From Rathayibacter oskolensis (lineage in GTDB: Bacteria; Actinomycetota; Actinomycetes; Actinomycetales; Microbacteriaceae): a stretch of 64,000 bases of DNA. The notes beneath the pieces are model-generated. The model ran no database searches and was not told where the DNA came from. It worked only from the letters and a program-made list of their open reading frames with translations. Positions 6,146-13,685 of the stretch are shown here, piece after piece (the first letter of the stretch is position 1; the number at the start of each line of letters is the position of its first letter). The stretch lies in the NCBI RefSeq assembly GCF_900177245.1, contig NZ_FXBM01000002.1, positions 62,001-126,000 on the forward strand, written 5' to 3'. The position numbers and the translations under genes are program-made.

Positions 6146-6157
6146 ATCCTATAGGAT
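6146..6157. promoter_or_regulatory. Palindromic operator ATCCTATAGGAT (left arm of the sugar island)
   Basis: A perfect 12-bp palindrome 54 bases upstream of the kinase ATG, nested in AGAATC...GATTCT. The same core TCCTATAGGA occurs at 13675-13684 before the opposing operon. Short central-TATA palindromes suit FCD-type GntR dimers, and such a regulator is encoded at 8532. Assignment to that regulator is inference. Confidence 0.7.
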
Positions 6158-6210
6158 CGATTCTGTTCGGCGGAAGCGCCGCACGACTCGATGATGAGGA
6201 GCCGACGAGC

Positions 6211-7965
6211 ATGACCCGTCTCTGGAACGAACCGGCGGACTTCGCCGACGACATGGTGGACGGCTTCGTCCGCGCCAACGGCCGCTGGGTCCGCAAGGTC
6301 GCCGGAGGCGTCTCGCGCTCCACCCGCTCGGAGGAGCCGGAGGTCGCCGTCGTCATCGGAGGCGGCTCCGGCCACTACCCCGCCTTCGCCGGACTGGTCG
6401 GGCCGGGCCTCGCGCACGGCGCCGCGATGGGCAACCTCTTCGCCTCGCCCTCGGCACACCAGGTCGAGTCCGTGATCCGGGCGAGCGAGCAGGGCCGGGG
6501 CGTCCTGCTCAGCTACGGCAACTACGCGGGCGACGTGCTGCACTTCACCGCCGCTCAGGACGTGGTGCGCGCCGAGGGCATCGACTGCCGCACGGTCACC
6601 GTCACCGACGACATCTTCAGCGCCCCTCCCGCCGAGGCGCACAAGCGCCGCGGCATCGCGGGCGACCTCACCGTCTTCAAGGTCGCGGGCGCGGCGGCCG
6701 CGGCCGGCTACGGCATCGACGACGTCGAGCGCGTCGCCGTCGCGACGAACGACCGCACCCGCTCGCTCGGTGTCGCCTTCACCGGCTGCACCCTGCCCGG
6801 TGCCGACGAGCCGCTGTTCACCGTCCCGGAGGGCCGCATGGCGGTCGGGCTCGGCATCCACGGCGAGCCGGGGATCGACGAGGTCGACATCCCGAGCGCC
6901 GCCGAGCTGGGCGAGCTGTTCGTCACCCACCTGCTCGCCGAGGCCGAGATCCCCGAGGGGGTCACGGTCGAGGGCGCCCGGGTCGTGCCGGTCCTGAACG
7001 GGCTCGGCTCGGTCAAGAGCGAGGAGCTCTTCGTCGTCTACAGCACGATCGCCGATCGGCTGGAGGAGCGCGGAGTCACCCTGGTCGACCCGCAGGTCGG
7101 CGAGTTCTGCACCAGCTTCGACATGGCCGGCGTCTCGCTCACCCTGTTCTGGGTCGACGACGAGCTCGAGACGCTCTGGACGGCTCCGAGCGACACGCCC
7201 GCCTACCGCACCGGCTCGGTCGACGGCGGCGCGCTCGTCGCCGTGGCCGCCTCCTCGGACGAGGTCGAGGAGGAGGAGCTGCCCGAGGCGAGCGAGGAGT
7301 CGCGCGCCGCCGCGTCCCGCCTCGCCGACGCGCTCGACACCGTGCGCGGGGTCATCGACGCGAACGCCGACGAGCTCGGACGCCTCGACGCCATCGCCGG
7401 CGACGGCGACCACGGCATCGGCATGAAGCGCGGCGCACGCGCGGCGGCCGAGGAGGCCGCGGCCGTCCGCGACCGCGGGGCCGGCGCCGCCTCGCTGCTG
7501 GCCCGCGCGGGCGACGCCTGGTCGGACCGGGCGGGCGGCACCTCCGGAGCGCTCTGGGGCGTGATCCTGAACAAGCTCGGCGGCGCGCTCGGCGACGATC
7601 GTGCCGTGACCGCCCAGGACGTCAGCGCCGGCGCGACCGCCGCCTCCGACGCGGTGCGCGCCTACGGCAAGGCGACGGTGGGCGACAAGACCATGGTCGA
7701 CGCGCTCGTGCCGTTCGTGGACACGCTGGCCGAGCGGGTCGCGGCGGGCGACGGCCTCGCCGACGCCTGGACCGCCGCGGCCGGTGCCGCGCGCACGGCC
7801 GCGGACGCCACCTCCGAGCTGATGCCCGGACTCGGACGCGCGCGCTCGCACGGCGAGAAGTCGCTCGGCACGCCCGATCCCGGAGCCGTCTCGTTCGCGC
7901 TGATCGTCGAGGCGATCGCCCCCCTGCTGACCACCACTGCGAAGACGACGAAGGAGACACCGTGA
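6211..7965 (+). CDS. DhaK-DhaL-type sugar kinase (dihydroxyacetone / erythrulose kinase family)
   Basis: 584 aa fusing a DhaK domain (about 1-335) and a DhaL domain (about 370-584). DhaK shows [14 protein letters not shown] and [11 protein letters not shown], whose His covalently binds the ketose in this family. DhaL shows [15 protein letters not shown], the Mg-ATP aspartates. These ATP-dependent kinases act on dihydroxyacetone; in mycobacteria close relatives phosphorylate D- or L-erythrulose. The RpiB-type gene overlapping its stop by 4 bases fits an erythrulose-type C4 substrate better than dihydroxyacetone. It is first in the left arm and preceded by the ATCCTATAGGAT operator. Kinase class is sure; exact substrate is not. 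Confidence 0.9.
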
Positions 7966-8423
7966 GCACCACCTGGAGGATCGTCATCGGCTCGGACGAT
8001 GCCGGCTACGACTACAAGGAGATCCTGAAGCGCGATCTCGAGGGCGACGACCGCGTCGTCTCGGTGGTCGACGTCGGAGTCGACGCCGACGGGCACACCG
8101 CCTACCCGACCGTCGCGACGACGGCGGCCGAGATGGTGGCGCGCGGCGAGGCCGACCGCGCCCTGCTGATCTGCGGCACCGGCCTCGGCGTCGCGATCGC
8201 GGCGAACAAGGTCGAGGGGATCCGCGCCGCGACGGCCCACGACAGCTACTCGGTCGAGCGCAGCGTGCTCTCGAACGACGCGCAGGTGCTCTGCATGGGG
8301 CAGCGGGTGGTCGGCATCGAGCTCGCGCGCCGCAACGTGCGCGAGTGGCTCGGCTACGTGTTCGACACGTCGAGCGCCTCGGCCGAGAAGGTCGCCGAGA
8401 TCGTCGCCTACGAGAAGGCCTAG
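7962..8423 (+). CDS. RpiB/LacAB-family sugar-phosphate isomerase
   Basis: 153 aa with the RpiB signature [20 protein letters not shown], which includes the catalytic-base cysteine. The N-terminal motif reads [11 protein letters not shown] where canonical RpiB has SDHAG, so the usual His is Asp; this points to a substrate other than ribose 5-phosphate. In mycobacterial tetritol pathways RpiB homologues isomerise erythrulose 4-phosphate to erythrose 4-phosphate, and the adjoining kinase fits that. The GTG start overlaps the kinase stop (GTGA), so the two are probably translationally coupled. A hairpin terminator follows at once. Confidence 0.9.
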
Positions 8424-8434
8424 CCGGGGGAGCC

Positions 8435-8461
8435 GAGGGGGCCCCGTTCCGGGGCGCCCTC
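8435..8461 (+). terminator. Terminator after the kinase-isomerase pair
   Basis: GAGGGGGCCCCG, a 3-base loop, then CGGGGCGCCCTC: 12-bp arms with one mismatch, 11 bases after the isomerase stop. It separates the enzyme pair from the regulator gene. Confidence 0.65.
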
Positions 8462-8531
8462 ACCGGGGGCTGTCCTATGCTTTCGAGCGGGCCCGCCAGC
8501 CCCTCTGCCGTTCGAATCCGCGAGGCCCCTG

Positions 8532-9245
8532 ATGACCGACCCCGTGTTCCGACTGACCGGCTCGGAGTCGATCGAGCGGCGCGGTCTGCGCGACCACGTC
8601 TACGACCGCGTGCTCGACGTGCTCCTCGGGCCCGACATCGAACCGGGCATGCGCCTGTCGATCGATGCGGTGTCGCGCGAGCTCGGCGTCTCGCCGACGC
8701 CCGTGCGGGAGGCGCTCGTGCAGCTCGAGCGCACCGGCCTGGTCACCCGCGTGGCCAACAAGGGCTACCGCGTCGCGCCTCCGCTCGCCGACGACCAGCT
8801 CGACGCGCTCTTCGACGCGCGCCTGGTGCTCGAGAGCGGAGCGGCCGCACTGGCCTCGGCCCACGAGGCGGCGCTGGTGCCGCGGCTGCAGGCGGCGCTC
8901 GCCGAGCACGAGGCGATGACCGCCGTGGTGCGCGCCGCGTCGACGACGGGGGAGCTGCCGGTCGCGCTGCTGCGCGAGTACTTCACGGTCGACTGGAACT
9001 TCCACCACCTGATCTTCGAGGGGACGCACAACCCGTTCCTCATCGACATGTCCGAGGCGATCTCGACCCGCGTGCACCGCATGCGGCAGACGGTGCAGAC
9101 CGGCGTGAGCGACGCCGACGAGGCGGTGCTCGAGCACCGGGCGATCGTGGACGCGTTCGCGTCGGGCCCGGAGGCGGCGGCCGCGGCGATGCGGGCGCAC
9201 ATCGAGCGGGTGCGCGAGCGCTCGCGGCGCGACTCCGTGCGCTGA
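8532..9245 (+). CDS. GntR-family transcriptional regulator, FCD (FadR-like) subfamily
   Basis: 237 aa. The N-terminal winged helix (about 18-80) includes DAVSRELGVSPTPVREALVQ and LERTGLVTRVANKGYRVAPP, the GntR recognition signature. The C-terminal all-helical FCD domain carries FDARLVLE...WNFHHLIF...LEHRAIVDAF, whose Asp/His residues usually bind metal or a carboxylate ligand. It is the only regulator inside the 6.1-13.7 kb island and is placed between the two converging arms, so it is the likely binder of the ATCCTATAGGAT sites. FCD regulators of sugar-acid pathways are mostly repressors released by a pathway intermediate. Confidence 0.9.
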   Translation: MTDPVFRLTGSESIERRGLRDHVYDRVLDVLLGPDIEPGMRLSIDAVSRELGVSPTPVREALVQLERTGLVTRVANKGYRVAPPLADDQLDALFDARLVLESGAAALASAHEAALVPRLQAALAEHEAMTAVVRAASTTGELPVALLREYFTVDWNFHHLIFEGTHNPFLIDMSEAISTRVHRMRQTVQTGVSDADEAVLEHRAIVDAFASGPEAAAAAMRAHIERVRERSRRDSVR

Positions 9246-9249
9246 GACC

Positions 9250-9288
9250 GAGAAGGGCCCGGCCGCGGGGAGCGACCGGGCCCTTCTC
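9250..9288. terminator. Bidirectional terminator where the two arms of the island meet
   Basis: Perfect 13-bp arms GAGAAGGGCCCGG / CCGGGCCCTTCTC with a 13-base loop, 5 bases after the regulator stop and 14 bases before the permease stop on the other strand. Confidence 0.85.
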
Positions 9289-9302
9289 GAGGGATCAGCG
9301 GG

Positions 9303-10679
9303 TCAGTGCTGCGCCTGCACGCTCGTGGTCTCGAGCAGCTCGTCCGCCTTGGCGCCGCGGAAGAACTTGGTGCTGAACATCATCGCCGAGGCGAGGAACG
9401 CGAAGACGCCGAGCGAGACGATGCCCCAGACCCCGCTGTCGGTCGGGATCGCCTCGTTGAAGCCGTTGCGCATCAGCGGCGCGACGAATCCGCCCAGGTT
9501 TCCGAGCGAGTTGATCAGGCCGATGCCGGCCGCTGCGGCCGCACCCGTGAGGAACGCGGTCGGGTAGGCCCAGGTGATCGGTCCGACCGAGAGGAAGCTC
9601 GCCACCGCCAGAGTGATGAACAGCAGGCCGATGATCGGCTGCTCCGTCGCTCCGGCCCAGGCCGAGCCGAAGATCGACAGGCCGGTGAAGATGTAGAACA
9701 TCGCACCCCAGGAGCGACGACGGCGGATGGTGTTCGCGTGCTGGCCCACGAAGTAGCAGGCGAACAGGCCGACGAGCCACGGGATGGCCGAGACGAGACC
9801 GACCTGGAATCCCACGTCCTGGCCGATCAGGTTCGCGACCTGCTGCGGGAGGTAGAAGGTCGTGCCGTAGACCGCGATCTGCAGGCAGAAGTAGATGATC
9901 GTGAAGTACCAGACCTTCCAGCTGGCCATCGCGCGCCAGATGCCCGTCGGGCCGTCGGCCTGGCGCACGGTGTCCTCGCGCTCCATCGCCGCCGTCAACG
10001 AGTCCTTCTCGCCCTGCGTCAGCCACTTCGCCTTCTGCGGATGGTTCGTCAGGAACTTCAGCGCCGCGAATCCGGCGATCACCGCCAGCAGACCCTCGGT
10101 GAAGAACATGACCTGCCACCCCTCCCACGGGGTGATCTGGTTGCCGATGCTGATCAGGCCACCGCTGAGGGGTGCGCCGAGCATCTGCGAGAACGGCTGC
10201 GCCAGGTAGAAGATCGCGAACATCTGCACGCGGACCTTGTTGGGGAACCACTCCGACAGGAACATGATGACGCCCGGGAACAGGCCCGCCTCGGTCACGC
10301 CGAGGAGGAAGCGCAGGATGATGAACATCGTGTCGCCGGTCGTGAACGCGAACGCGGCCGCCACGATGCCCCAGGTCACCGCGATGCGGGCGAGCCAGAA
10401 CCTCGCGCCGAAGCGCTTGAGCAGCAGGTTGCTCGGGATCTCGAAGATCGCGTAGCCGATGAAGAAGATGCCGGCGCCGAGGGCGAAGGCTCCGTCCGAG
10501 ATGCCGCGGTCGACCGACAGCGCCTCCTCGGCGAACCCGACGTTGGTGCGATCGAGGAACGCGACGAAGTAGAGGATGACGAGCATCGGCATGAGATGCC
10601 GGGACGCCTTGGAGATGGCGGACTTCAGGGCTGGATCACGAGTGGATCCGAGAGCCGCGGACGGCGAGGGGTTGGACAA
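9303..10679 (-). CDS. MFS permease, anion:cation symporter (ACS)-like
   Basis: 458 aa with about 12 membrane helices. The start resembles ACS-family permeases (tartrate, glucarate, phthalate type): LVILYFVAFLDRTNVGFA in helix 1, then EIPSNLLLKRFGARFWLAR and RFLLGVTEAGLFPGVIMFLS. ACS permeases usually import organic or sugar acids with protons, so the island substrate may be an aldonic acid rather than a neutral polyol. It is the last gene of the leftward operon, after the 36-aa membrane protein. The start is the ATG at 10679, with GGAG-type purines upstream. Confidence 0.88.
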   Translation of the reverse strand: MSNPSPSAALGSTRDPALKSAISKASRHLMPMLVILYFVAFLDRTNVGFAEEALSVDRGISDGAFALGAGIFFIGYAIFEIPSNLLLKRFGARFWLARIAVTWGIVAAAFAFTTGDTMFIILRFLLGVTEAGLFPGVIMFLSEWFPNKVRVQMFAIFYLAQPFSQMLGAPLSGGLISIGNQITPWEGWQVMFFTEGLLAVIAGFAALKFLTNHPQKAKWLTQGEKDSLTAAMEREDTVRQADGPTGIWRAMASWKVWYFTIIYFCLQIAVYGTTFYLPQQVANLIGQDVGFQVGLVSAIPWLVGLFACYFVGQHANTIRRRRSWGAMFYIFTGLSIFGSAWAGATEQPIIGLLFITLAVASFLSVGPITWAYPTAFLTGAAAAAGIGLINSLGNLGGFVAPLMRNGFNEAIPTDSGVWGIVSLGVFAFLASAMMFSTKFFRGAKADELLETTSVQAQH

Positions 10680-10724
10680 GGCACTCTCCTTTGAGGGTTG
10701 ACCGGGGGACGCAGGGAAGGGAGG

Positions 10725-10835
10725 TCAGGGGCCCAGTGCGGGCAGGATCTGGGCGGCGCCGACTCCGACGAGGAGGACGCCGACGGCGAGGAAGAGGATG
10801 CGGCCGATCGACCACGTTCCGACGAGCTTGTTCAT
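10725..10835 (-). CDS. 36-aa single-pass membrane microprotein upstream of the MFS permease
   Basis: A short gene reading MNKLVGTWSIGR, then one hydrophobic helix (ILFLAVGVLLVGVGAAQ) and the tail ILPALGP. ATG at 10835 is preceded by CGGAACCCTC as ribosome site; the stop is at 10725. It lies 25 bases after the SDR stop and 45 bases before the permease start, within an operon that otherwise has short gaps. Tiny helices called MFS transporter small subunit occur next to some bacterial MFS genes, and this looks like one (from memory). An accessory role in assembly or regulation of the permease is inference. Confidence 0.7.
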   Translation of the reverse strand: MNKLVGTWSIGRILFLAVGVLLVGVGAAQILPALGP

Positions 10836-10860
10836 GAGGGTTCCGATCCGGGGCTGGGTG

Positions 10861-11622
10861 TCAGTGCATGTAGAGGCCGCCGTCGACGTTCAGGGTCTGG
10901 CCCGTCACGAATCCGGCGTCCTCGCTGATGAGGTAGGCGATGGCCGCGGCGATGTCGCGCGGGGTCCCGATGCGGGGGAGGACGCCGTCGGCGGCCATGG
11001 CCGTCTTCCGCTCCTCGCTGAGGGTGCCGCCCATGATGTCGGTGTCGATCGGGCCGGGGGAGACGGCGTTGACCGTGATCCCCTGGTGTCCGAGCTCACG
11101 GGCGACGCTGCGGGTGAAGCCGATGACTCCGGCCTTCGCCGCCGAGTAGGCGGTCTTGCTGAAGGTGCCGCCGCCGCGCTGGGCCGAGACGGAGGAGAGG
11201 CTGACGACCCGCCCGACTCCGCGGGTCACCATCGACTCGACCGCGCGGCGGGTGCTGAAGTGCACGCCGTTGAGGTTGACGTCGATGACGCGCTGCCACT
11301 CCTCGGGAGTGACCTCGAGGTACGAGACCGGCGAGGCGATCCCGGCGAGGTTGACCAGGGCGACGACGGGAGGCAGCGCCGCCTCGAGCGCGTCGAAGGC
11401 GGCGCGGACCTGGGCGTCGTCGGCGACGTTCGCCCCGGCTCCGGCGGCCTGCACGCCGTGCTGCTCGGCGATCTCGGCCGCCACCTCCTGCGCGGCCTCG
11501 GCCTGCAGATCGATGACGCCGACGTTCCAGCCCTGCTCGGCGAGGTGGTGGGCGGTGTAGCGGCCGATGCCGCGGGGCGAGGCGGCGCCGGTGAGGACGA
11601 CGGTGCGCGATTCGGGGAACAT
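10861..11622 (-). CDS. Short-chain dehydrogenase/reductase (polyol or sugar dehydrogenase-like)
   Basis: 253 aa classical SDR: TGAASPRGIG cofactor loop near the N-terminus, NLAGIASP (NAG-like) strand, catalytic Ser/Tyr/Lys in SLSSVSAQRGGG...YSAAKAG, and SPGPIDTDIM after them. The acidic residue closing strand 2 (VIDLQ) favours NAD over NADP. The third gene of the leftward operon, it probably oxidises a hydroxyl of the imported sugar or acid. Relatives in tetritol pathways are threitol or erythritol dehydrogenases; the exact substrate cannot be read here. Confidence 0.88.
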   Translation of the reverse strand: MFPESRTVVLTGAASPRGIGRYTAHHLAEQGWNVGVIDLQAEAAQEVAAEIAEQHGVQAAGAGANVADDAQVRAAFDALEAALPPVVALVNLAGIASPVSYLEVTPEEWQRVIDVNLNGVHFSTRRAVESMVTRGVGRVVSLSSVSAQRGGGTFSKTAYSAAKAGVIGFTRSVARELGHQGITVNAVSPGPIDTDIMGGTLSEERKTAMAADGVLPRIGTPRDIAAAIAYLISEDAGFVTGQTLNVDGGLYMH

Positions 11623-11664
11623 GGGTGCCTTTCTGACGACGGTGTCGGAGGGGGTGCGCTGAGC

Positions 11665-12618
11665 TCAGGCGATCGGGGCGGGGCCCAGCTCGTCCATGAG
11701 CTTCTTGATCGCGACGTAGGCGCGGTTGCGGTAGGCGATGAGCTCGGAGGTCCGATCGGCGGGCACGTCGAGGTAGCCGGCGCCCGACTTGGTGCCGAAC
11801 TTGCCGGCGTCGACCAGCGCGGCCAGCGACTCCGGAGTCGCGAAGCGCTCGGGCCAGCGGGTCTGCAGCGAGGCGTAGCAGAAGGCGTAGACGTCGAGCC
11901 CGGCCATGTCGGCGATCGCGAACGGACCGAAGACCGGGAGGCGGAAGCCGAAGGTGGTGCGGACGATCGTGTCGATGTCCTCGGGGGTCGCGATGCCCTC
12001 CTCGACGATCTGCGTCGCCTCGTGGAACAGCGCGTACTGCAGGCGGTTGAGCACGAAGCCGGTCGAGTCCTTGACCCGCGCGGTCTCCTTGCCGGTAGCC
12101 GCGACGATCTCCTCGGCCAGCGCGATCGCGCTCTCGGAGGTGCCGGCGTGCGGGATGAGCTCGACCCCGGGGATGAACGGCGCCGGGTTCGAGAAGTGCA
12201 CGCCCAGGAAGCGCTCGGGGCCGGTGACCGCCTCGGCGAGCGAGCCGATCAGGATGGTGGAGGTGTTCGATCCGATGACCGCGTCGGCGCGGGCCGCCGC
12301 GCTGATGCGGCGGAGGGTCTCGTGCTTGATCTCGATCTTCTCGGGCACCGCCTCCTCGATGAAGTCGGCGTCAGCGACGGCCTCCTCGATCGAGACGGCG
12401 GGCGAGAGGTTCGCGCGGATGCGCTCGACGGCGTCCTCGGGGAACAGGCCGTCGGCGACGAACTGGGCGGTCTCGGTGAGGAGGCGCTCGTAGTTGCTGC
12501 GGGCGATCTCCTCGGAGATGTCGGCGATGACGACGGTGGCGCCAGAGAGCGCGAGCACCTGGGCCATGCCTCCGCCCATGTATCCGGAGCCGACGACGGC
12601 GATTCTGCGTTCGGTCAT
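11665..12618 (-). CDS. 3-hydroxyacyl-CoA dehydrogenase-like NAD-dependent hydroxyacid dehydrogenase
   Basis: 317 aa with the two domains of the family: N-terminal Rossmann fold (VVGSGYMGGGMAQVLALSG, then DADFIEEAVPE and GSNTSTI) and helical C-terminal domain (FVLNRLQYALFHEA...GFRLPVFGPFAIADMAGLD). The catalytic His stands in GVHFSNPAPF. Besides fatty-acid enzymes the family contains L-gulonate and carnitine dehydrogenases, and the sugar context favours such a small hydroxyacid substrate. It lies 12 bases after the TIM-barrel gene stop and has GGAAG as ribosome site. Confidence 0.87.
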   Translation of the reverse strand: MTERRIAVVGSGYMGGGMAQVLALSGATVVIADISEEIARSNYERLLTETAQFVADGLFPEDAVERIRANLSPAVSIEEAVADADFIEEAVPEKIEIKHETLRRISAAARADAVIGSNTSTILIGSLAEAVTGPERFLGVHFSNPAPFIPGVELIPHAGTSESAIALAEEIVAATGKETARVKDSTGFVLNRLQYALFHEATQIVEEGIATPEDIDTIVRTTFGFRLPVFGPFAIADMAGLDVYAFCYASLQTRWPERFATPESLAALVDAGKFGTKSGAGYLDVPADRTSELIAYRNRAYVAIKKLMDELGPAPIA

Positions 12619-12630
12619 GACAGAGCTTCC

Positions 12631-13629
12631 TTACTTCGAGGTCCGCGCTGCGCGGGGCAGCAGCGAGCGGATGTAGGTCTGGTTGGTGCCGCACATGCCG
12701 AGGCTGTCGCCTCCGTAGTGCTCGGCGAGGATGATGCCGCGGAAGCCGCCCTCTACCGCGTCGCGCATCACCTGGCGGTAGTTGATGAGACCGGCCTCCA
12801 TGGTCGAGGGGACCGAGGTCGCCCACGAGCCGTCGGCCGACTCGTCGCGCGTGTAGTTCTTCACGTGCATGTAGTTGGCGTAGGGGAGCGTCTTGGCGAA
12901 CAGCTCGCGCCAGTTCTCGACGGGGCGGTGCAGCCGGATGAGGTTCGCGACGTCGGGGTTGAGGCCGACGTTGTCCAGCCCCACCTCCTCGACGAAGCGG
13001 ACCGCGCTGTCGGCGGTGCCGAGGTAGGTGTCCTCGTAGAGCTCGAGGGCGAGCGGCAGCCCGACGTCGGCGGCGTGCTTGCCGAGCTCGCGGATGCGGC
13101 TGACGGCGGCGTTCCACACGTCGGGGTCGTCGGGGTCCTTCGGGCCCTCGGCGGTCCAGAACCACAGCGCGCGCTTCTGCGCCTCGCTGAACGGCTGGTG
13201 CAGGCCGGTCGAGAAGACCTGCATGCCCCACTCCGCGGCGGCGTCGATCGTGCGGTGCGCGTAGGCGAGGTTCTTCTCCTCGTGGCCCGGCATGATCACG
13301 CTCTGGCGCTGCAGGTGCACCGAGGGGATGCCGATCCCGTGCGAGCGGGCGATGCTCAGGAACTCGTCGCGTCGCGAGGGCTCCAGGTCGGCGGGCCGCA
13401 CGTGGCTGTCGGCCAGCTCGGCGAGGGTGAAGCCGACCTGCTCGACCTGGGCGAACATGTCGTCCCAGACCTCGGGGGCCGCGTCGTGCAGGGCGACGCC
13501 CTCCCGCGAGACGGGAGGGATGCCGTGCAGGCAGGTGGCGATCGGCCAGGTCTCGGCCGTCCAGGTGTCGGGGTTCCAGTCGACGGTGTCCCAGGTCTGG
13601 GCTCCGCCACCGATCGTGCGTTCGGTCAT
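12631..13629 (-). CDS. Sugar-phosphate isomerase/epimerase-like TIM-barrel protein
   Basis: 332 aa from the ATG at 13629 (ribosome site AAGGGAGC). It belongs to the xylose-isomerase-like TIM-barrel superfamily, with candidate metal ligands in order: Glu in LALELYEDTYLGT, Asp in GLNPDVANLIRLH, His in YMHVKNYTRD and Glu in IILAEHYGGDS. Members isomerise, epimerise or decarboxylate sugar derivatives. One known use is decarboxylation of 3-oxo-isoapionate to erythrulose (OiaC), which would link neatly to the kinase and isomerase at 6.2-8.4 kb, but I cannot prove that here. It is first in the leftward operon, behind the second TCCTATAGGA operator. Confidence 0.85.
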   Translation of the reverse strand: MTERTIGGGAQTWDTVDWNPDTWTAETWPIATCLHGIPPVSREGVALHDAAPEVWDDMFAQVEQVGFTLAELADSHVRPADLEPSRRDEFLSIARSHGIGIPSVHLQRQSVIMPGHEEKNLAYAHRTIDAAAEWGMQVFSTGLHQPFSEAQKRALWFWTAEGPKDPDDPDVWNAAVSRIRELGKHAADVGLPLALELYEDTYLGTADSAVRFVEEVGLDNVGLNPDVANLIRLHRPVENWRELFAKTLPYANYMHVKNYTRDESADGSWATSVPSTMEAGLINYRQVMRDAVEGGFRGIILAEHYGGDSLGMCGTNQTYIRSLLPRAARTSK

Positions 13630-13673
13630 CGTGCTCCCTTGCACTCGGGCGTCCCACTCTGGACGCACAAAAG

Positions 13674-13685
13674 ATCCTATAGGAA
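13674..13685. promoter_or_regulatory. Palindromic operator ATCCTATAGGAA (right arm of the sugar island)
   Basis: Matches the left operator at 11 of 12 bases and keeps the perfect 10-bp core TCCTATAGGA. It lies about 45 bases upstream of the TIM-barrel ATG, where it would overlap or adjoin the leftward promoter. Confidence 0.7.

Follow-up and report, generated by a model that had tools for sequence, protein, structure and literature searches.

We analyzed a 64,000-nucleotide (64-kb) stretch of DNA from Rathayibacter oskolensis (contig NZ_FXBM01000002.1, positions 62,001 to 126,000), henceforth the window; coordinates count from its first letter. Between positions 6146 and 13685 it holds an island of eight genes in two arms that are read toward each other, with a short operator at each outer end. 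On balance we favor the view that the island encodes one inducible pathway, in which a five-carbon (C5) sugar acid would be oxidized at C3, decarboxylated to L-erythrulose and fed to erythrose 4-phosphate. The case is built on what can be read from the sequence: the genes, their operators, their conservation among relatives and the paralogy of the enzymes.

Two facing arms form a predicted two-site regulon

The left arm (forward strand) begins with a fused DhaK-DhaL-type kinase (6211-7965), for which the Dak1 and Dak2 domains, the model NF011049, paralogy and tree position predict L-erythrulose (tetrulose) 1-kinase activity. An RpiB-family isomerase gene (7962-8423; PF02502) overlaps the kinase end by 4 bp and is followed by an FCD-domain GntR regulator (8532-9245; PF00392 and PF07729). 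The right arm (reverse strand) begins with an AP_endonuc_2 TIM barrel of the family of the solved structure 5tnv (12631-13629), a predicted decarboxylase or ketose 3-epimerase. Next come a 3-hydroxyacyl-CoA-dehydrogenase (3HCDH)-family enzyme (11665-12618; PF02737 and PF00725), predicted to be a sugar-acid 3-dehydrogenase, an SDR-family oxidoreductase (10861-11622; PF13561), a 36-amino-acid single-span microprotein (10725-10835) and an ACS-family MFS permease (9303-10679; PF07690), predicted to import a sugar acid. All eight open reading frames were confirmed in the window. In comparing loci, which carry L numbers, we write KIN for the fused kinase, RPIB for the RpiB-type isomerase, TIMB for the TIM barrel and HAD for the 3HCDH-type enzyme.

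The left operator, ATCCTATAGGAT, lies at 6146-6157, 54 bp ahead of the kinase start, and the right operator, ATCCTATAGGAA, at 13674-13685, 44 bp ahead of the TIM-barrel start; taken together the two sites read ATCCTATAGGAT/A. With up to two mismatches the 12-mer is confined to these two places in the 64 kb (four strand matches), where chance predicts a mean of 0.35 and none of 100 shuffles reached four. The palindromic core, the 10-mer TCCTATAGGA, occurs at exactly two places in each of six related genomes (five Rathayibacter and one Agreia); once locus offsets are added, both are island ends, 5′ of the TIM-barrel arm and of the kinase arm. The reversed control is found at no place in the same six genomes. 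An earlier note on this DNA had described two facing arms with one operator at each outer end, and this description was accurate. One palindrome upstream of each arm is the arrangement expected of a regulon under a single GntR/FCD regulator, and the FCD protein, which accompanies the operator in relatives, is predicted to repress both arms from these outer sites.

A scan with the TIM barrel found 506 relatives; the best 80 of these 506, four plasmid loci and the window make up a set of 85 loci, in which gene counts cover the fetched stretch around each locus. The 12-mer (up to two mismatches, no more than 250 bp upstream of a gene match) precedes the TIM barrel at 76 of 85 loci, the kinase at 52 of 73 and the FCD gene at 17 of 76. 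It precedes none of the inner genes in this survey (RPIB 0/57, HAD 0/74, SDR 0/64, MFS 0/62). For three control motifs the mean was 0.67 at the TIM barrel, 1.33 at the kinase and 0 at the others. The TIM barrels without an upstream site are those of L001-L003, L052, L053, L055, L069, L071 and L081. In the genome of L009 (L090, L091) the arms are parted by ∼17 kb, which include GH26, GH2 and GH5/CBM11 genes and an ABC binding protein; both operators are retained.

Among the 85 loci KIN is present at 76, RPIB at 57, a TPI-like isomerase at 66, the FCD gene at 77, HAD at 74, the SDR at 64, the MFS permease at 62 and PdxA at nine. HAD and KIN occur together at 66, in several orders and strands: the arms converge in Rathayibacter, Plantibacter and Glaciibacter, are co-directional in Agrococcus and Microbacterium, and take a regulator-first order in Curtobacterium. 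Arthrobacter sp. StoSoilB13 (L004) carries the full set on one strand of a megaplasmid. The closest relatives among the best 80 are Rathayibacter L005-L009, with TIM barrels 91-96% identical. To counter the bias of the best-80 set, a class-wide sample of 296 Actinomycetes genomes was drawn. Thirteen contain the TIM barrel (one is the genome of L005, its neighbors taken from the main locus survey; one contig is short), and nearby are KIN in 11 of the 13, RPIB in ten, HAD in nine, PDXA in one and the operator in nine. L110 and L112 lack KIN; L110, L112, L113 and L114 lack the operator. Across Actinomycetes the genes keep company in a variety of arrangements, mostly accompanied by this operator, which makes a single pathway the best reading of the two arms; that they should be conserved together in relatives was an expectation fixed in advance, and it is borne out.

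A predicted tetrulose-phosphate tail

The kinase scores 742.6 bits against NF011049 (cutoff 492), and its fused DhaK-DhaL form agrees in sequence with the tetrulose-type kinases of the LerK-LerI-DerI branch. These enzymes take L-erythrulose, via its 1-phosphate and D-erythrulose 4-phosphate, to erythrose 4-phosphate (PMC10733421, cited from part of its text). The genomes of L086-L089 carry both the island and a second, apionate-type operon comprising an MFS permease, a kinase, RPIB, a TPI-like isomerase, an OiaX-like TIM barrel and a PF16896 protein. The island kinase is 64-65% identical to the kinase of this operon, and 37-40% identical to the split DhaK of relatives, in which split DhaK and DhaL genes lie separately. 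RPIB is 73-79% identical to its second-operon paralogue in L086-L089, and a comparison within Rathayibacter gave 79-80%, as against 30-33% for the housekeeping RpiB. By these comparisons the island pair are paralogues of the apionate-type pair, not housekeeping enzymes. In a kinase tree the apionate-type kinases and 26 island kinases form one 31-row set (support 100/99); 8 further island rows and the rhizobial kinases fall outside it. Kinases thus seem to have been swapped between the two kinds of operon and, because they seem to be shared, their sequences suggest that both act on the same substrate.

Paralogy and neighborhood together make phosphorylation followed by isomerization to erythrose 4-phosphate, as proposed in the earlier note, a well-supported prediction for the tail. 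The erythrulose-like ketose of that note can be narrowed: L-erythrulose is the likely candidate, its 1-phosphate requiring an additional TPI-like isomerase (LerI/EryH type), a gene carried by the islands of most relatives, absent from this one and located at a second locus in relatives' genomes. Rathayibacter and Agreia genomes hold one TPI-like match at 47-50% identity and another at 36-38%; in the genomes examined (G001, G003, G005) the former sits in the second operon. Island-type and housekeeping-like TPIs share only 35-38% identity. At 40% identity the TPI-like protein of L004 resembles the TPI encoded in the erythritol locus of Rhizobium johnstonii 3841, and in a plasmid search with the TPI-like protein (a spread listing) erythritol-type Rhizobium TPIs rank before ordinary TPIs among the matches listed.

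A third locus is found in Rathayibacter sp. VKM Ac-2857 (L118). It contains an ABC transporter, an alcohol-dehydrogenase-like gene, a kinase (53%) and RPIB (73%) and, judged by gene content, resembles tetritol loci.

The front end and its substrate

Neither the dehydrogenase nor the TIM barrel passes the cutoff of any curated NCBIfam model. Of the solved chains, 4om8 comes closest to the dehydrogenase (E 1.5e-48); the label “HAD-like” previously given to this enzyme is correct only in the sense of the 3-hydroxyacyl-CoA-dehydrogenase family. The chain nearest to the TIM barrel is 5tnv (E 2.2e-79), a Mycobacterium smegmatis structure with magnesium, to whose type the island protein belongs by sequence and fold match. 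It is the sole close solved relative, and our literature search found no publication on it.

HAD and PDXA avoid each other: of the 85 loci one has both (L039), 73 have HAD only, eight PDXA only and three neither (Fisher p 3e-8, relatedness not corrected). At eight of the nine PdxA loci (L069, L071, L074, L077, L080 and L001-L003) PdxA stands in place of HAD, and together with a TTT transporter it replaces HAD, SDR and MFS, while kinase and TIM barrel are kept. PdxA is an enzyme that oxidizes a β-hydroxy acid. We read HAD and PDXA as two families oxidizing β-hydroxy acids that rarely co-occur, which would point to a sugar acid oxidized at C3. Ten of the 74 HAD loci do without the SDR, which is dispensable there.

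The best model for the permease is the D-galactonate transporter TIGR00893, with a score below cutoff. A TTT transporter accompanies PdxA in all nine PdxA loci, and a GntP permease is present in two HAD loci tested (L025 and L115). These swaps among ACS-MFS, TTT and GntP transporters suggest a carboxylate substrate and lend support to the earlier proposal of sugar-acid import. The microprotein, of 30-36 amino acids and with the motif W[ST]xxxR..FL..G, occurs in 44 of 61 SDR-MFS gaps of relatives and window (antisense control, 1/61), the gaps without it being those of 16 Curtobacterium-type loci and L029; it matched no Pfam or NCBIfam family and may act as a small partner to the permease.

After oxidation at C3 and decarboxylation the erythrulose takes the C4 configuration of the pentonate, so that an L-pentonate would give L-erythrulose directly. 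Plants produce L-threonate, L-lyxonate and L-xylonate from ascorbate (PMC11066805, cited from part of its text). Candidate plant substrates are L-lyxonate, L-xylonate and L-arabinonate, the last on the basis of L081 and L113, where arabinofuranosidase-type genes lie downstream of TIMB-HAD; L081 also has an L-arabinose isomerase gene upstream.

Comparison with known systems

The apionate-type operon (Erwinia sp. E602 plasmid, L092; Rathayibacter, L086/L087) has the same gene order in the Erwinia annotation as in the second operon of relatives. It shares with the island the fused kinase (60-65% identity), the RpiB-type isomerase, the TPI-like isomerase found in relatives' islands, an MFS permease, and a dehydrogenase with an AP_endonuc_2 TIM barrel. 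Its dehydrogenase, however, is a PF16896 protein, which we take to be the D-apionate oxidoisomerase ApnO, whereas that of the island is of the 3HCDH family; the island TIM barrel is of the 5tnv family, and the island adds the SDR, the microprotein and FCD two-site control. PF16896 is absent from the eight island proteins and present in L089 and, by tblastn, in L086-L088 and L092; of the 84 island loci L053 alone has an ApnO-like gene within its fetched stretch. At 1e-20 no OiaX-like tblastn match was obtained in the 84 island loci. That the island is the apionate operon itself was ruled out, because a separate operon of ApnO and OiaX type exists in relatives. A parallel with OiaC, presumably a RuBisCO-like decarboxylase, had also been drawn; it fails, there being no RuBisCO-like domain in the eight proteins, and the relevant apionate parallel is ApnO with OiaX, the latter presumably a TIM-barrel decarboxylase.

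Tetritol use in M. smegmatis (EltD, LerK, LerI, DerI) reaches erythrose 4-phosphate through the same phosphorylation and isomerizations (PMC10733421); the island differs in having no such polyol dehydrogenase, an acid-type transporter and two extra enzymes. The erythritol locus of Rhizobium and Brucella (EryA-B-C-H-I) likewise includes a TIM barrel, and in R. johnstonii 3841 EryI is 41% identical to RPIB and EryH 40% to the operon TPI. In contrast, the island kinase belongs to the DhaK family and has no EryA match, its TIM barrel is not alignable with EryC, and no EryB-type domain occurs among the eight proteins. In the rhizobial cluster GntR-PdxA-TTT-TIM barrel-DhaK (Shinella, Sinorhizobium and Pararhizobium; L001-L003) the TIM barrel, ∼50% identical, adjoins a fused kinase, but PdxA and TTT take the place of 3HCDH, SDR and MFS, and neither TPI nor RpiB adjoins. 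We know of no published function for this cluster.

Proposed pathway and alternatives

All reactions of the route that we propose are predictions, as are the effector and the repressing mode of control. The ACS-type permease, possibly assisted by the microprotein, would import the substrate, a sugar acid and most likely a C5 aldonate. The 3HCDH-type dehydrogenase would oxidize the hydroxyl β to the carboxylate (C3), and the resulting 3-oxo acid would be decarboxylated, with the TIM barrel as the probable catalyst, to yield L-erythrulose. The fused kinase would form L-erythrulose 1-phosphate; a TPI-like isomerase, expected from the second locus, would convert this to D-erythrulose 4-phosphate, and the RpiB-type enzyme would deliver D-erythrose 4-phosphate to the pentose phosphate pathway. 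Repression of both arms by the FCD regulator at the outer operators would be released when an intermediate binds.

A tail of this kind has been described before, and regulators of this type are commonplace; what appears new is the front end, in which a 3HCDH-type enzyme and a 5tnv-type TIM barrel together precede a tetrulose tail, a combination for which we found no paper in a search thin on subscription journals. More tentatively, the island may represent an undescribed C5 sugar-acid route of plant-associated Actinomycetes, in which a 3-dehydrogenase of 3HCDH type (or PdxA) and a 5tnv-family TIM barrel would turn an L-pentonate, such as L-xylonate or L-lyxonate from plant ascorbate breakdown, into L-erythrulose, alongside the routes from apionate and tetritols and with a dedicated two-site FCD regulon. 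If so, it would be a third front end – a sugar acid, besides polyol and apionate – onto the same tetrulose-phosphate tail, and would provide a function for the TIM-barrel family of 5tnv; the two-site operator would be a clean handle on induction of both arms. Use of compounds formed in ascorbate breakdown, a link that we infer, would be in keeping with two observations: some relatives have tetronate-type genes flanking the island, and the hosts are plant-associated.

Several observations weigh against the proposed route. The TPI-like gene, present at 66 of 85 loci, has no match in the window, and in six genomes there is no operator at its second-locus copy. RPIB scores above the cutoff of TIGR02133 (RPI_actino), a model named for ribose-5-phosphate isomerase, reaches only 141 bits against the rhizobial DerI model NF051858 (cutoff 240), and is missing from 19 of the 76 KIN loci, as well as from the majority of Curtobacterium islands. 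By hidden Markov model, the TIM barrel scores 24-43 bits with OiaX-like proteins (none for Erwinia L092) and 29.5 bits with D-psicose 3-epimerases. Finally, PdxA-type enzymes usually decarboxylate unaided, so that a decarboxylating TIM barrel would be idle in PdxA loci; its constancy beside PdxA speaks for an epimerase. With the same tail, the product made from a D-pentonate by the dehydrogenase or PdxA would decarboxylate to D-erythrulose, which the TIM barrel, as a ketose 3-epimerase, would convert to L-erythrulose ahead of the kinase. Besides the PdxA loci, the next best solved folds after 5tnv accord with this, being ketose 3-epimerases that include 5h1w, solved with L-erythrulose; so does EryC, which performs a comparable conversion at the level of the 1-phosphate (PMC10733421, same portion of text). 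The TIM barrel nonetheless matches the OiaX-like profile over 227 columns (probability 98%, E 4.8e-14) and has no match to the one EryC sequence compared, a weak test; a common fold, moreover, proves no function. We consider the D-pentonate scheme rather unlikely, though worth keeping in view. As to the TIM barrel itself, scores and folds favor neither activity, and we place decarboxylase ahead of epimerase by a small margin.

Other substrates would change the chemistry more deeply. Were L-threonate or an erythronate oxidized at C3, decarboxylation would give dihydroxyacetone and the kinase, a member of the dihydroxyacetone kinase family, would yield dihydroxyacetone phosphate. L-threonate-dehydrogenase-like and/or DUF1537 genes do lie beside the island at 18 of 85 loci (15 and 12, respectively; both at nine), and matches to NF043037 score 241-249 bits, below its cutoff of 350. 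They are optional, however, 67 of the 85 loci being without them in the fetched stretch, and the tetronate enzymes LtnD and OtnK (HIBDH-type dehydrogenase, DUF1537 kinase) are absent from the eight island proteins. For dihydroxyacetone phosphate alone the RpiB and TPI-type pair common to the apionate-type operon would be useless, and relatives have split DhaK/DhaL kinases elsewhere; a tetronate pathway is improbable. A tetritol pathway, in which the SDR would oxidize threitol or erythritol to erythrulose with the rest accessory, agrees with the tail enzymes and, as in the D-threitol route of M. smegmatis, would need no more than SDR, kinase and RpiB. Yet TIM barrel and dehydrogenase persist where the SDR is gone, the transporters are of acid type, and L118 has its separate tetritol-like locus, which leaves this reading very little room. 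We give equally little credence to a variant D-apionate operon with a 3HCDH-type enzyme in the role of ApnO: tail and distant OiaX kinship of the TIM barrel are as it would have them, but 83 of 84 island loci are without an ApnO-like protein (the exception being L053), and the island genomes L086-L089 hold their ApnO-like operon separately.

The arm junction and neighboring genes

Between the converging arms lies a symmetric GC-rich hairpin (∼9248-9288) with a folding energy of -47.4 kcal/mol (z -6.8; none of 200 shuffles was equally low). The earlier note had placed a shared terminator here: the hairpin is real, but no T-run follows it in the window, and for this reason a terminator role is only plausible.

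Tetronate-type genes lie, for example, at 18613-20957 of L013 and at 14300-16770 of L021, in the latter immediately 3′ of the permease. In L060 and other Clavibacter loci TIMB-HAD adjoins inositol-type genes (aldehyde dehydrogenase, KduI/IolB, a thiamine pyrophosphate enzyme and PfkB).

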